Of a stretch of DNA of 64,000 nt, positions 20,240 through 26,060 are shown in pieces; the first letter of the stretch is position 1, and every line of letters begins with the position of its first letter. The translations under genes were made by a program, and so were the position numbers. A model generated the notes under the pieces. It was not told where the DNA came from, ran no database searches, and worked only from the letters and a program-made list of their open reading frames with translations. This DNA is from Sneathia sanguinegens. Lineage in GTDB: Bacteria; Fusobacteriota; Fusobacteriia; Fusobacteriales; Leptotrichiaceae. The stretch is taken from NCBI RefSeq assembly GCF_001517935.1, contig NZ_LOQF01000006.1:1-64000 (forward strand), read 5' to 3'.

Positions 20240-22951
20240 TTATTTCTTAAGCAATTTCATAAGAAGTTCCTTAATCTCTTTATTTTCTTTTTTCAATGCT
20301 TCAATTTCTTTTTGTTGTACACTACTATCATAAATTTCCCCAAAAACAACTCCTATACCTAAACCAAGACCTAAGTTTCCTTTAGTATTTACAGTTCCAT
20401 TTAATCTATATGTTAATCTTCTATTCTTTGTTATACCACTCAAACCTATAGCTACAGCATGTTCTGAACCATAAGTACCATATGCTGCTGAAAGTCCTGC
20501 TGAACTTGATACATTTTGTGTTAAACTAGACATAGCCATACAATTAGCTATACCACTTAATGCCATATCTGTTTTCTTATCCATATTTTCAATTTGTTTT
20601 TTCATTTCTTTACTCATTTGAGCATCTTTACCATTTTCGCCTTTTAATGAATCTAGGAAATCAGATACTGTTAATTTATCTAAACTCTTACCATGTTTAT
20701 CTGCATATTCAACAGCTTTATCTGATGTTGCCCATATATCATAAGCACTCTTACCATTTTTTCCTGGTTTTCCTGGTTCTCCAGCTTTCAATTTAATTTT
20801 ATCTATTTCATCTTTTAATTGTTTAACATTTACTGCATCAGTATCGTCTTTACCTTCTGCAACAAATTTTATTTGTCTTTGAGTATTACTATTACCGATT
20901 GAAACTGCATTTGTTACTGGTGTACTACTATCTCCAAACACTATTGCATTATTAATACCATCTATTGTTACGTTACTTCCAAATACTAAGTTTTGATTAC
21001 CCTTAACCTTATTATTATATCCCATAACTTGATTCATTTCGCCTGTTACTTGTGATAATTGACCAATATTTGTATTATTTTTCCCTGTTGTTAATAAATC
21101 AACACCGAATGAAATACTATTTTCTCCAACTGTTTTAGTTCCTTTACCCATTGCTATTGCATTATCACCAACAGCTAAGGTATCAGTACCATAAGCTATA
21201 TTATCCTTTCCCAAATTTCTTAAATCATATAAGGTTAGAGCATCTTTTAGTGCCTTTAATCTTTCTTTATTTTCTTTTAATGTATTAGTCATTTGTTCTA
21301 TTTCAGCTTTTACTTGTTCATATTCCCTTGATAAAATTAAATCTTGTTCACTAGGATTTATTCCTTTAGCATTTCTCTCTGCTTGTTCATATTCAGATTT
21401 CATTCTATCTATTTTTTCTTGTCTTTCTTTTATAGCGTTCTTATTTACTCCTAAAGCTTGTTCTAATTCATTAGTTAATTTTTCTGTTGTTATCTTATTC
21501 TTATTTAAAACATCATCTATATTTTCTTTTCTCCATTCATTTATAAACTTATCACAAATTTTAGATAATAATTCACCGGTATTCTCTAATTCTTCACCAA
21601 ATAATTCCTTATACTTTGCTTTTATTACTTCTATATTCGTATCTAATTTTTGCTGTCTTTTATTTATGCATTCTCTTTTCTTATCTAGCCATGTAACATC
21701 ATGTGTTTGTTCATATTCCCATTGGTCATGTGTTATTTCATAATCTAAATCAACCAATTCAAATTTCATATCAGTTACCATATTGAATAAAATTGTAGAT
21801 TTTCCATTAGTTAAAGTGTCAAATTTACCAACAAATTCATTTCCAATTCTTTTATTAACATCATATATTTGATTTTTCCAATCATCTTTAGCACTCTTCC
21901 ATAGATCATAATCTGTTTGATTAGTTATATCTACATTAATATCTTTTACTGTTGTTACTGGTTTACCATTATACATATATTCTGAATTATTAACAATTCC
22001 AATTTCACCACTTATACTGTAATTGCCTAAATATCTATAATATGCATCACAATTCATTGCATTACTATAAGATAAAGTGTCATAACTAATTGGCATACTT
22101 TCATCATAAATACTCCTACAATATATAACTATATCTTTTAAATCTCTCTTTAAAAAATTTGCTTCAATTTTATTATATATATTATTTATTTTGCCATTTG
22201 GTAAATTAGTAGACCCATATATACAATTACTTAATATTTTATTCATTCTCAAATCACCAAGTGCCTTATAATAACTAGTTATATAGTCTTTATAGAACTC
22301 TTTACTTAAATTTAAGGTAGTACCTTGTTCTACCTTTTGTTTAAATTTCTCAGCTGTTTCATCTGATTCTCCTGAAGTTTCTATATTCCCTAATTCTCCT
22401 ATTCCGGTAAGTCTTGAATTTAAATCATCTATTTTAGCTTGATAGTTCTTGAAAAATTCTTCACTTCCGTCAACTTCTGTTTGCCAGGCATTTCTTAATC
22501 TTTCAGCTTCTCTTTCTGCATTAGCCTTCGCATTTCTTATTTGTTCTACTCTAATACCTGCTTGTATTACATCTTGTTCTCTTTTTTGTAAATCACTTAT
22601 CTTATTTGTGATTTCTACACCTTTCTTTTCTACTTCGCTTATTTCATTTAATTTTGCTTGATTTTCTTGTAGTTTTCTCTCTATATCTTCTTTACTTGTA
22701 TTATCACCACCTGTAGCTACAGCACCTTTTCCTGTTGCTATACCATTTTCACTTGTAGCAATACTTCCTTTTCCACGAGCTCTTGAATTATCTCCTATTT
22801 CTAATCCATGATCTTCTCCAATTATTGAGACATTTACATTATCTCCAAATACTGCAATACCTCCAGTAATCATGAATAAAATTATGATTGCCTTATTTAT
22901 TGCAATTTTTTTCTTAAAATTAGCCTTAATACTTTTTTCTAACTTATTCAT
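20240..22951 (-). CDS. YadA-type trimeric autotransporter adhesin (coiled-coil rich)
   Basis: Surface adhesin of the type Vc secretion class. Residues 1-37 form an extended signal peptide ([21 protein letters not shown]). Head-type repeats (IGEDHGLEIGDNSRARGKGS, about 40-80) precede coiled coil (88-160), a region without recognisable motif holding most aromatic residues (about 215-420), more coiled coil (430-590), a second YadA-like head (DNAIAMGKG, TVGENSISFG, about 600-690), the neck motif [11 protein letters not shown], a three-triplet collagen-like GEPGKPGKN, and the anchor (about 800-875). The chain ends with about 28 residues of coiled coil beyond the barrel, which is atypical. The ATG follows GGAGG. 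Promoter spacing includes a G5 run. A paralogue lies directly upstream, and a decayed one at 217-870. Confidence 0.93.
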   Translation of the reverse strand: MNKLEKSIKANFKKKIAINKAIIILFMITGGIAVFGDNVNVSIIGEDHGLEIGDNSRARGKGSIATSENGIATGKGAVATGGDNTSKEDIERKLQENQAKLNEISEVEKKGVEITNKISDLQKREQDVIQAGIRVEQIRNAKANAEREAERLRNAWQTEVDGSEEFFKNYQAKIDDLNSRLTGIGELGNIETSGESDETAEKFKQKVEQGTTLNLSKEFYKDYITSYYKALGDLRMNKILSNCIYGSTNLPNGKINNIYNKIEANFLKRDLKDIVIYCRSIYDESMPISYDTLSYSNAMNCDAYYRYLGNYSISGEIGIVNNSEYMYNGKPVTTVKDINVDITNQTDYDLWKSAKDDWKNQIYDVNKRIGNEFVGKFDTLTNGKSTILFNMVTDMKFELVDLDYEITHDQWEYEQTHDVTWLDKKRECINKRQQKLDTNIEVIKAKYKELFGEELENTGELLSKICDKFINEWRKENIDDVLNKNKITTEKLTNELEQALGVNKNAIKERQEKIDRMKSEYEQAERNAKGINPSEQDLILSREYEQVKAEIEQMTNTLKENKERLKALKDALTLYDLRNLGKDNIAYGTDTLAVGDNAIAMGKGTKTVGENSISFGVDLLTTGKNNTNIGQLSQVTGEMNQVMGYNNKVKGNQNLVFGSNVTIDGINNAIVFGDSSTPVTNAVSIGNSNTQRQIKFVAEGKDDTDAVNVKQLKDEIDKIKLKAGEPGKPGKNGKSAYDIWATSDKAVEYADKHGKSLDKLTVSDFLDSLKGENGKDAQMSKEMKKQIENMDKKTDMALSGIANCMAMSSLTQNVSSSAGLSAAYGTYGSEHAVAIGLSGITKNRRLTYRLNGTVNTKGNLGLGLGIGVVFGEIYDSSVQQKEIEALKKENKEIKELLMKLLKK

Positions 22952-22985: not shown

Positions 22986-23018
22986 ATTATACTACCCCCA
23001 CTTTGCATATTTTGTCAA
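22986..23018 (-). promoter_or_regulatory. Adhesin promoter with G5 run in the spacer
   Basis: Minus strand: TTGACA (23013-23018), then AAATATGCAAAGT, five G (22995-22999), then TAGTATAAT. TAGTAT is 18 bases and TATAAT 21 bases from the -35. The same arrangement with six G occurs before the paralogue, so spacer length differs between the two promoters. Confidence 0.75.
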
Positions 23019-23178: not shown

Positions 23179-25995
23179 TTATCTTTTGACCATATTATTT
23201 AACAATATTTCTAATTTTTCATTTAATTCTTTAATTTGAGCAGATTGTTCTTCTAGTTTTTGCTTCATAGCATTTCTTTCTTTTTCAGATTGAATTAATT
23301 TTGCTTTTATTTCACTTGGTTTTTCAATTTCAAAGTCATGTTTTTCCCCAAGCATAACACCAATACCAGCACCTACTGCTAATGATCCCTTTGTATTAAC
23401 TGCTCCAGATAGTTTATACACTATTCTTCTATTATTATTTGTACCACTTATTCCAATAGCAAATGCACTTTGTCCTGCAAAATTACCCATCGCTGCTGTT
23501 ACCATATGATTATATTTTCCATAACTTGTTACTTGTGGCAAATTAGACATTGCTATTGCGTTTGCAACTCCACCTATAGCTAAATCTGCTTTTGAATTTG
23601 CTTTATTAATATCTGCTTTCATATTATTCATAGCTTCACCATTTTTAAACTTGTCTAAATAGTCCTTAACTTGACTATCAGTAACCAAAATATTTTTAGG
23701 CTTTTCTATATCTGCGCCATCTGATAATTTTTTAATTAAAGCTTCTTTTGATTTATCATCTAAATTAGAACCATCTAAATCCAATTTACCATTTAATTTT
23801 TCAAATAATTGGCTTCCATTTATGGCATCTGTTGAATCTTTTTCTATTTTTCCATTACCTATATTAGATAATACCATACTATTTTCTTCTGGTAACGCTT
23901 TAATAAATACATCTTTAGGATCTAAACCACCTGGTACTTCTGATCCATTCTTATCAATATATTTATTACCATTATATTTTGCATCTTTTAGCATTTCTTC
24001 AGTATAGAACTTATTATCTTTACCACGAATCAATCTAGAAGTAGAACTAACCTCTCCTTTTTTATAATATGCAAAAGTACTATCACCTTTACCACCTGCA
24101 CTTAGTGTAATAGAATGTCCATCTTCAAATTCTATTATTGTATTACCCAAAGCATCTTCAGTAGTTGATTTTATTTTGGCATCTTTACCTGGATCTCCTT
24201 TATCACCTTTAGGTCCTGCTTCTCCTTTTTCACCAGGTTGTCCTTGTGGTCCTGCTGGTCCTGTTTCTCCTTTTTGTCCTTGTGGTCCTGTTGGTCCTAC
24301 TGGTCCTTGTGGACCTTGTTGACCTGTATCACCTTTAGGTCCTGGTTCTCCTTTTTCACCAGGTTGTCCTTGTGGTCCTGTTGGTCCTTGATCACCTTTT
24401 GGTCCTACAGGTCCTGGTTCCCCTTTTGCACCAGGTTGTCCTTGTGGTCCTGTTTCTCCTTTTTTACCAGGTTCTCCTTGTGGTCCTTGTGGCCCTGTTG
24501 GTCCTTTATCACCTTTTGGTCCTACAGGTCCTGGTTCCCCTTTTGCACCAGGTTGTCCTTGTGGTCCTGTTGGTCCTGCAGGTCCTGTTTCTCCTTTTTT
24601 ACCAGGTTCTCCTTGAGGTCCTTGTTGACCTGGATCTCCTTTATCACCTTTTGGTCCTACAGGTCCTGTTTCTCCTTTTTCACCAGGTTGTCCTTGAGGT
24701 CCTTGTGGTCCTGTTGGTCCTGCAGGTCCTGGTTCTCCTTTTTTACCAGGTTCTCCTTGTGGTCCTTGTGGCCCTGTTGGTCCTTGATCACCTTTTGGTC
24801 CTACAGGTCCTGGTTCCCCTTTTGCACCAGGTTGTCCTTGAGGTCCTTGTGGTCCTGCAGGTCCTGCTTCTCCTTTTTCTCCTCTGTCTCCTTTAGCTCC
24901 CTTATTAATTGTCACTTCATTTCCATCACTAAATTTTATTATTGTATTTTTATTTTCATCTTCCTTAGTACTTATTATTTTTACAGATTTACCATCTACT
25001 CCATCTTTTCCTTTTTCTCCTCGTTCACCTTTAGCTCCTTGTTTTCCTTCTAGTCCTCTTTCTCCTTTATCTCCTTTAGGTCCTTTTAATGAAGCTAAAA
25101 ATTCTTTTTTAGTTTCTTCGTTATCAGGTTTATTCTTATTTTCTGTCAAATTCTTCCAAATATAGTAAGGTGATGCCTTCTTTAATTGTGCTACATTTAC
25201 TGCATCTGTATCATCTGTACCTTCTTTAACAAATTTTATTTGTCTTTCATGTTTTTCAGAACCAATTGATACTGCATTTGTTATTGGTGTACTACTATCT
25301 CCGAATACTATTGCATTATTAACTCCATTTATTGTTATATTACTACCTAAAACAATATTTTTTTCTACATTATTATCTTCTGTACCTATCTTATTATTTA
25401 CACCAAATGATATATTTTCATTTCCATATACCTTATTTTTATTACCATGCACTTGATTTGAATCACCATATACTTCATTTTCATTACCTATTGAGTAAGT
25501 TCCATCTCCTTTTGAAAATGACTTATCTCCTATTGTAAAGGTATTGTCTCCTAATGTTGTTGTTTCGTTCCCTATAGTGTAGCTATTATTACCACCTTTT
25601 GGAACTGTACCTAATAGTTCATTTTCTTTCTTTGTTATTTCTAATTCCTTTTCAGAAATTTTAATTCTTAATTTTGCTTGTTCTTCTGTATCACTTGAAT
25701 TTCTTAATTTATCTTCTAGTACTTTTTTTTCATCATTTAATTTTTTTAATTCTTTAAGAATATCCTTTATTTGTTGTGCATTATCTTTATCTTTACTTCC
25801 AACTATTGAATTATCACCTAGTACATATCCATTTTTTGCAAAACTATTTTCACCTATTGCATTTCTTTTGATAATATAGTCCCCTTGTGCGGACATTGAA
25901 AAACTTCCAGTAATCATAAATAAAATTATGAGTGCTTTGTTTATTGAAATTTTTTTCTTTAAATTCGTCTTAATACATTTTTCTAATTTTTTCAT
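23179..25995 (-). CDS. Trimeric autotransporter with collagen-like shaft
   Basis: About 938 residues. Extended signal peptide ([21 protein letters not shown]), short coiled coil (about 75-130), YadA-like head repeats ([22 protein letters not shown], about 140-235), neck motif [11 protein letters not shown], a YYIW-FLASLKG module, then 11 G-X-Y triplets (from about 304), a 27-residue spacer, and 80 uninterrupted G-X-Y triplets (about 365-604). A diverged copy of the spacer ([18 protein letters not shown]), stalk with DAINGSQLF, the YadA anchor and a roughly 50-residue coiled-coil tail follow. Since the anchor trimerises, a collagen triple helix is structurally consistent. I chose the ATG at 25993-25995 (GGAGG five bases before) over the in-frame TTG at 26007, which overlaps that site. 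Confidence 0.95.
24183..24901 (-). repeat. Collagen-encoding repeat tract
   Basis: DNA encoding 80 consecutive G-X-Y triplets, visibly richer in G+C than its surroundings because of Gly and Pro codons. Long near-identical segments recur: 24391-24452 matches 24508-24569 over about 62 bases, and about 54 bases recur from 24787. Units are built from [19 protein letters not shown]-type and [11 protein letters not shown]-type blocks. Copy number could change in frame by recombination or slippage, altering shaft length. Confidence 0.9.
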
Positions 25996-26028
25996 TTTTT
26001 CCTCCAAATTATATAGTTTTATTTCTAT

Positions 26029-26060
26029 CTTATACTACCCCCCACCGCATATTTTGTCAA
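26029..26060 (-). promoter_or_regulatory. Collagen-adhesin promoter with G6 run in the spacer
   Basis: Minus strand: TTGACA (26055-26060), AAATATGCGGT, six G (26038-26043), then TAGTATAAG. TAGTAT is exactly 17 bases from the -35. The first 14 bases match the other adhesin's promoter. Confidence 0.75.

Follow-up and report, generated by a model that had tools for sequence, protein, structure and literature searches.

The window analysed here, a 64-kb stretch of DNA with a G+C content of 27%, contains an adhesin gene on the minus strand (23179-25995) encoding a protein of 938 aa that starts at an ATG at 25995 and is preceded by a GGAGG Shine-Dalgarno sequence (26001-26005). Pfam searches of the protein returned Collagen (PF01391, E=1e-44), YadA_stalk (1e-10, in two stretches) and YadA_anchor (4e-9). 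The source genome (G000) is a 1.29 Mb draft in 32 contigs, and only one of its 15 YadA-anchor genes carries a collagen run. On the plus strand, two ORFs (24238-25053 and 24372-24896) only shadow the collagen repeat in antisense. The neighbouring gene, also on the minus strand (20240..22951), encodes a paralogous trimeric autotransporter of 903 aa, the head of which carries a largely charged insertion of several hundred residues. Upstream of the 938-aa reading frame lies a promoter-like site (26032..26060, minus strand; consensus match only), consisting of TTGACA and TAGTAT separated by 17 nt with a G6 tract in the spacer, and a near copy with an 18 nt spacer and a G5 tract is found upstream of the paralogue (22989-23018, minus strand). 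Common to this adjacent pair of adhesin genes is thus a promoter-like element, TTGACAAAATATGC...GGGGG(G)TAGTATA (G6/17 nt, G5/18 nt), which occurs at two sites in the whole source genome, both upstream of these genes, and at none in the congener G001 (1.33 Mb, single contig). As judged from the sequence, the G tract could permit tuning of the promoter by slippage; the tracts are short.

All features of the 938-aa protein described below are encoded on the minus strand. The N-terminal leader or signal region (aa 1-36; 25888..25995) has a long basic n-region, and no Pfam match to ESPR (PF13018) was obtained for the protein at E<1. AlphaFold2 was run on monomers with four-sequence alignments (mean pLDDT 59 and 56), and these models give no judgement on the collagen runs. 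Near the start of the head, a helical hairpin insert was predicted (aa 69-130; 25606..25791) with a pLDDT of mostly 82-92, lower at its ends. A YadA-like β-roll head was assigned to aa 133-255 (25231..25599) because of its β-roll repeat pattern, a predicted ladder of paired strands and phmmer matches to the YadA head 1p9h (E=1.5e-8, query 138-274) and to other solved heads of trimeric autotransporters. The Pfam YadA_head model (PF05658) did not match the protein, and a Foldseek search of solved structures with the model of the N-terminal half returned nothing significant, probably since an isolated protomer of a trimeric β-roll, modelled from a four-row alignment, makes a poor query. The head is followed by a first neck of the YadA_stalk family (PF05662; aa 256-274, 25174..25230) that includes the motif DAVNVAQLK.

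At the other end of the protein, a lower stalk (aa 636-817; 23545..24090) contains the second neck, matched by YadA_stalk, and a predicted helix leading into the barrel (aa 786-817). The YadA/Hia-type outer-membrane anchor (PF03895; aa 818-881, 23353..23544) has four predicted strands, and its model matched the Hia translocator in Foldseek searches (3emo, 1.9e-8; 2gr7, 7e-8; 2gr8, 3e-7, with a TM score of 0.88 on the target); the C-terminal model, with a mean pLDDT of 56, also matched AtaA (2.5e-5). A preliminary description of this DNA, made from the sequence alone, had claimed a complete trimeric autotransporter frame with an anchor of an obligately trimeric class. The frame is borne out by PF05662, PF03895 and the phmmer match to 1p9h, the ESPR and YadA_head models being without a match, and the class of the anchor by the structural match to Hia 2gr8. 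Trimerisation of the 938-aa protein would be expected from its anchor family. The anchor is followed by a C-terminal coiled extension (aa 882-938; 23182..23352) with a predicted helix at aa 893-937 that is presumably periplasmic. In the other trimeric autotransporter genes of the source genome that were scored (L069, L173-L181), 35-71 aa extend beyond the anchor, and most of the Pasteurellaceae relatives retrieved have ~2 aa after the barrel, against 57 aa here. In trimeric autotransporters of Veillonella an additional C-terminal domain follows the anchor, with the same noted for Fusobacteria (PMC7549365), and the passages on these proteins mention no collagen shaft; the coil resembles these extensions and was dropped as a candidate novelty. 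Neither the coil nor the two joint modules around the collagen described below had been part of the preliminary description.

Between the two necks lie two collagen runs, the first of 11 Gly-X-Y triplets without interruption (aa 305-337; 24985..25083) and the second of 80 uninterrupted triplets (aa 366-605; 24181..24900), exactly the counts given beforehand. In run 2 glycine occupies its position in 80 of 80 triplets, encoded by varied codons (56 GGA, 19 GGT and 5 GGG). Since glycine is constant while its codon and the X and Y residues vary, the pattern is kept at the protein level. Proline accounts for 45% of X and 20% of Y positions in this run, and 20 KGE/KGD pairs occur in its 80 triplets, in agreement with the earlier proposal that the composition would stabilise a triple helix. 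Run 1 is charged, with proline in only one of its 11 triplets, and by its sequence may be only marginally stable. The collagen triple helix rises 0.286 nm per residue, which gives run 2 a length of ~69 nm if it is triple-helical.

Alternatively, the Gly-X-Y region could be an extended disordered linker, in which three chains run side by side without forming a stable triple helix at body temperature. The lack of hydroxyproline is consistent with such a linker, as is a rough triple-helix propensity estimated from host-guest tables, which before bonuses for charge pairs comes to only ~37 in run 2 and ~33 in run 1. A linker would not, however, be expected to pass through 80 triplets without a single glycine error or to hold 20 KGE/KGD pairs, and the collagen here has trimeric clamps at both sides. 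Moreover, hydroxyproline-free relatives from bacteria and phage are triple-helical, and EPclA, a phage collagen that likewise lacks hydroxyproline, forms trimers with a melting temperature of 42 °C (PMC3368898). A disordered linker is therefore considered unlikely, and, to judge from their sequence, a collagen triple helix is the most likely fold of the 91 Gly-X-Y triplets.

Where the Gly-X-Y runs begin and end, two kinds of joint module directly adjoin them. Module A (aa 275-304; 25084..25173), defined by sequence and AlphaFold2, is predicted to be helical and has the pattern S.Y.IW...FL.SLKG. Module B, for which three short β strands are predicted, is present in two copies, one between the runs (aa 338-365; 24901..24984; pLDDT ~85) and one after run 2 (aa 606-635; 24091..24180; pLDDT ~77). 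No Pfam family covered either module in the 938-aa protein, and sequence searches of solved structures gave none for A or B, the best E values (~0.1 and 0.02) being judged chance. In the paralogue encoded at 20240-22951, module A follows only four Gly-X-Y triplets, which is a minimal form of the same cassette. In G001, a separate trimeric autotransporter of 597 aa (L191) carries module A three times, joined by short Gly-X-Y stretches, and lacks a long collagen run.

Profile and sequence searches found modules next to Gly-X-Y in other proteins as well. A surface protein of Streptococcus oralis (L054) has matches beside Gly-X-Y runs many times over, a Fusobacteriota protein (L018/L068) has them next to a run of 60 triplets, and among Pasteurellaceae proteins module A (L149, L154, L164) or module B (L052, L152, L156) lies beside the collagen. 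When viral contigs were searched, the C-terminal part as query found no match, and the head-to-collagen joint recovered phage collagen proteins, one with a module-B-like segment (L182). From their sequence and position, modules A and B may couple the three-fold neck to the staggered collagen helix. A wider proposal is that bacterial surface collagens of unrelated phyla are mounted by these same two modules, acting as trimeric couplings that pass the chains from a symmetric neck or a coiled coil into the staggered helix, and that in this lineage such a cassette was swapped into the stalk slot of an adhesin that has its head in common with a sister species, leaving the shaft to evolve separately from the head. 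This proposal is put forward tentatively and is rather less likely than otherwise.

A further alternative is that the gene encodes a tail fibre of phage origin or is what remains of a prophage, a reading to which the many PHROG tail-fibre families matching the collagen part and the module-B-like segment of L182 would lend themselves. The PHROG matches, however, fall mainly within the repeat, where composition alone gives matches. The leader, the YadA head and the outer-membrane anchor are of bacterial type, and the flanking genes tested encode a DUF1846 protein, a HAD hydrolase, a LytR-CpsA-Psr protein, an EamA protein and a sugar ABC transporter. With the anchor and the neighbouring genes set against the PHROG matches, a phage origin was rejected as extremely improbable.

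The history of the gene was approached by comparison with G001, which is of the same genus and had no collagen match. The G001 gene L066 is 85.8% and then 83.0% identical in DNA sequence from 4 nt before the ATG to nt 813 of the CDS, at the end of the neck; at the protein level, aa 1-205 are 74% identical to the product of a G001 gene. Beyond nt 813 similarity resumes only at the anchor (67%), and the stalk of L066 is built from a different, non-collagen repeat. Since a closely similar leader, head and neck stand on a non-collagen stalk in G001, collagen occupies the stalk slot and the shaft is an exchangeable part. Neighbouring housekeeping regions are only 70-73% identical between the two genomes, and synteny with G001 was not found, pieces of the flanks mapping at 747 and 511 kb and the head at 1046 kb. 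On these sequence identities the head looks to have been exchanged between species. The promoter and leader resemble those of the adjacent paralogue (20240-22951), and the closest counterparts of the C-terminal part lie in other genes. Because its parts are similar to different genes, the gene is a mosaic, as is usual among trimeric autotransporters.

The gene could alternatively be a product of faulty assembly, with the head and anchor of different genes joined through repeats, or with the repeat collapsed in length. The source genome is a draft in which no 16S gene was detected, necks are alike among the paralogues, and repeats of 135-144 bp are present. Against this, the frame is unbroken over 2.8 kb, the genome has one Pfam collagen locus and so no second copy to join, and the similarity among paralogue necks is only ~83% over ~180 bp. 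The same architecture also occurs in other genomes, including G070, which is a single contig. An artefact is accordingly regarded as very improbable and the gene as a genuine one, with the exact number of triplets uncertain.

Relatives were sought among 98 Fusobacteriota and 140 Pasteurellaceae genomes, in which collagen matches were found in 15 and 96, respectively. A run together with an anchor was confirmed in at least five of the 98 Fusobacteriota (G000, G013, G038, G039 and G070), and the 80-triplet run is the longest in this sample. Among 20 Pasteurellaceae regions hand-picked for strong matches, mostly in long ORFs, 16 combined a Gly-X-Y run of up to 623 triplets with an anchor in the same ORF; the family search proposed earlier for other YadA-anchor proteins with such runs was thus productive in both groups. 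Pasteurella atlantica has a run of 272 triplets (L047), and the paper on its genome includes, with a model based on Hia, a ‘putative collagen triple helix repeat protein’ (PMC8226905). The longest run belongs to a YadA-anchor ORF of 2651 aa (L163, from the Pasteurellaceae genome G128), in which 623 uninterrupted triplets begin shortly past the neck and would span ~530 nm if triple-helical. Two giant trimeric autotransporters of 4700 and 5330 aa in G013 (L068, L115) continue for ~150-170 aa beyond the anchor and contain a number of short Gly-X-Y runs. The Pasteurellaceae relatives are like the 938-aa protein in that a single ORF spans head, neck, collagen (16 to 623 triplets in their case) and anchor, and some also have module A (L149, L154, L164) or B (L152, L156) beside the collagen. 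They differ in Y-position proline, which is absent or lower in the runs scored (0-0.19, against 0.20 in run 2).

The closest described proteins are the VtaA of Haemophilus parasuis, collagen-bearing trimeric autotransporters that were reported in 2009 by Pina et al., as cited in PMC6755704. In strain Nagasaki 13 of 13 VtaA have collagen domains ahead of the anchor (PMC6211672). Like the 938-aa protein, VtaA are single chains with a YadA head and stalk, collagen repeats and, at the C terminus, a YadA anchor (PMC6211672, PMC6755704); compared by published descriptions, VtaA have an ESPR leader, whereas none was detected in the 938-aa protein. The protein is of VtaA-like architecture and, because PF13018 gave no match at E<1, is not filed as a VtaA orthologue. 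The streptococcal Scl1/Scl2 and Legionella Lcl also use hydroxyproline-free collagen for surface display, with other anchors and trimerisation domains and no YadA head or barrel, and the Scl/Lcl NCBIfam models scored below their cut-offs on the repeat (226/325, 210/400 and 159/500 bits). The contrast with Scl drawn in the preliminary description was right as to the trimerisation domain, but VtaA are the fair comparison. In the E. coli prophage proteins EPclA/B, non-collagenous domains likewise hold a trimeric stalk of hydroxyproline-free collagen together (Tm 42 °C; PMC3368898); they differ in having phage fibre domains at the ends and in not being autotransporters. The Burkholderia ‘collagen-like adhesins’ (PMC10224339) were set aside as a different group with another domain. 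The earlier opinion that collagen shafts have been little described for this class is not supported, since VtaA have been studied experimentally (PMC6755704, PMC6211672) and the architecture is also found in Pasteurella atlantica, many Pasteurellaceae and at least four other Fusobacteriota species. Collagen-bearing trimeric autotransporters are an already known kind, with examples from Pasteurellaceae of pigs and fish among others, to which the Fusobacteriota protein adds a member; a search of the open-access literature found no report of a collagen shaft in adhesins of Sneathia or Fusobacteriota.

Taken together, the features of the protein make a trimeric autotransporter adhesin with a collagen shaft a well supported assignment at the sequence level, and the whole reading, a type Vc trimeric adhesin bearing a YadA-like head on a collagen shaft that serves as its stalk, is held with high confidence. 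Three identical chains would form a 12-stranded outer-membrane barrel through which the passenger would be exported. By analogy with the export of other trimeric autotransporters, the barrel-proximal part of the passenger would emerge and trimerise first and folding would probably zip from the C to the N terminus, as it does in animal procollagen and unlike Scl, in which the trimerisation domain is N-terminal. The anchor, necks and joint modules would clamp the three chains on either side of the collagen. The β-roll head would then be kept off the membrane by a shaft of ~70 nm, formed mainly by the 91 Gly-X-Y triplets.

The shaft would act mainly as a stalk of variable length, and the protein would presumably adhere to a ligand. 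It is also conceivable that the Gly-X-Y region is the active part, mimicking or binding host collagen or collagen receptors, and that the head is secondary. In E. coli, the collagen region of VtaA2 adds to the attachment to collagen. Without this region VtaA2 is still produced and attaches less to collagen, whereas attachment to mucin, to fibronectin and to plastic is not lowered (PMC6755704). By analogy with VtaA2, direct binding of host collagen by the shaft is possible. Mammalian fibrillar collagens are, in addition, the best solved-structure matches of the run, though such compositional likeness is expected for any collagen. However, head and collagen part company in G001, where a closely similar head occurs without collagen, and GER triplets occur in the protein only as GDKGER and GAKGER, neither of which is known as an integrin motif. 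An active collagen region with a secondary head is thus rather doubtful, and the collagen is preferred as a stalk.

The 938-aa protein extends a known and thinly studied class, the collagen-bearing trimeric autotransporters, to the Fusobacteriota. The natural pair formed by two species of one genus, in which nearly the same head stands on a collagen or a non-collagen stalk, could serve to separate the roles of shaft and head. If the organism is a Sneathia, with which its genome size and base composition, the 15 YadA anchors and the 1.33 Mb of the congener would agree, the protein would face the host mucosa.
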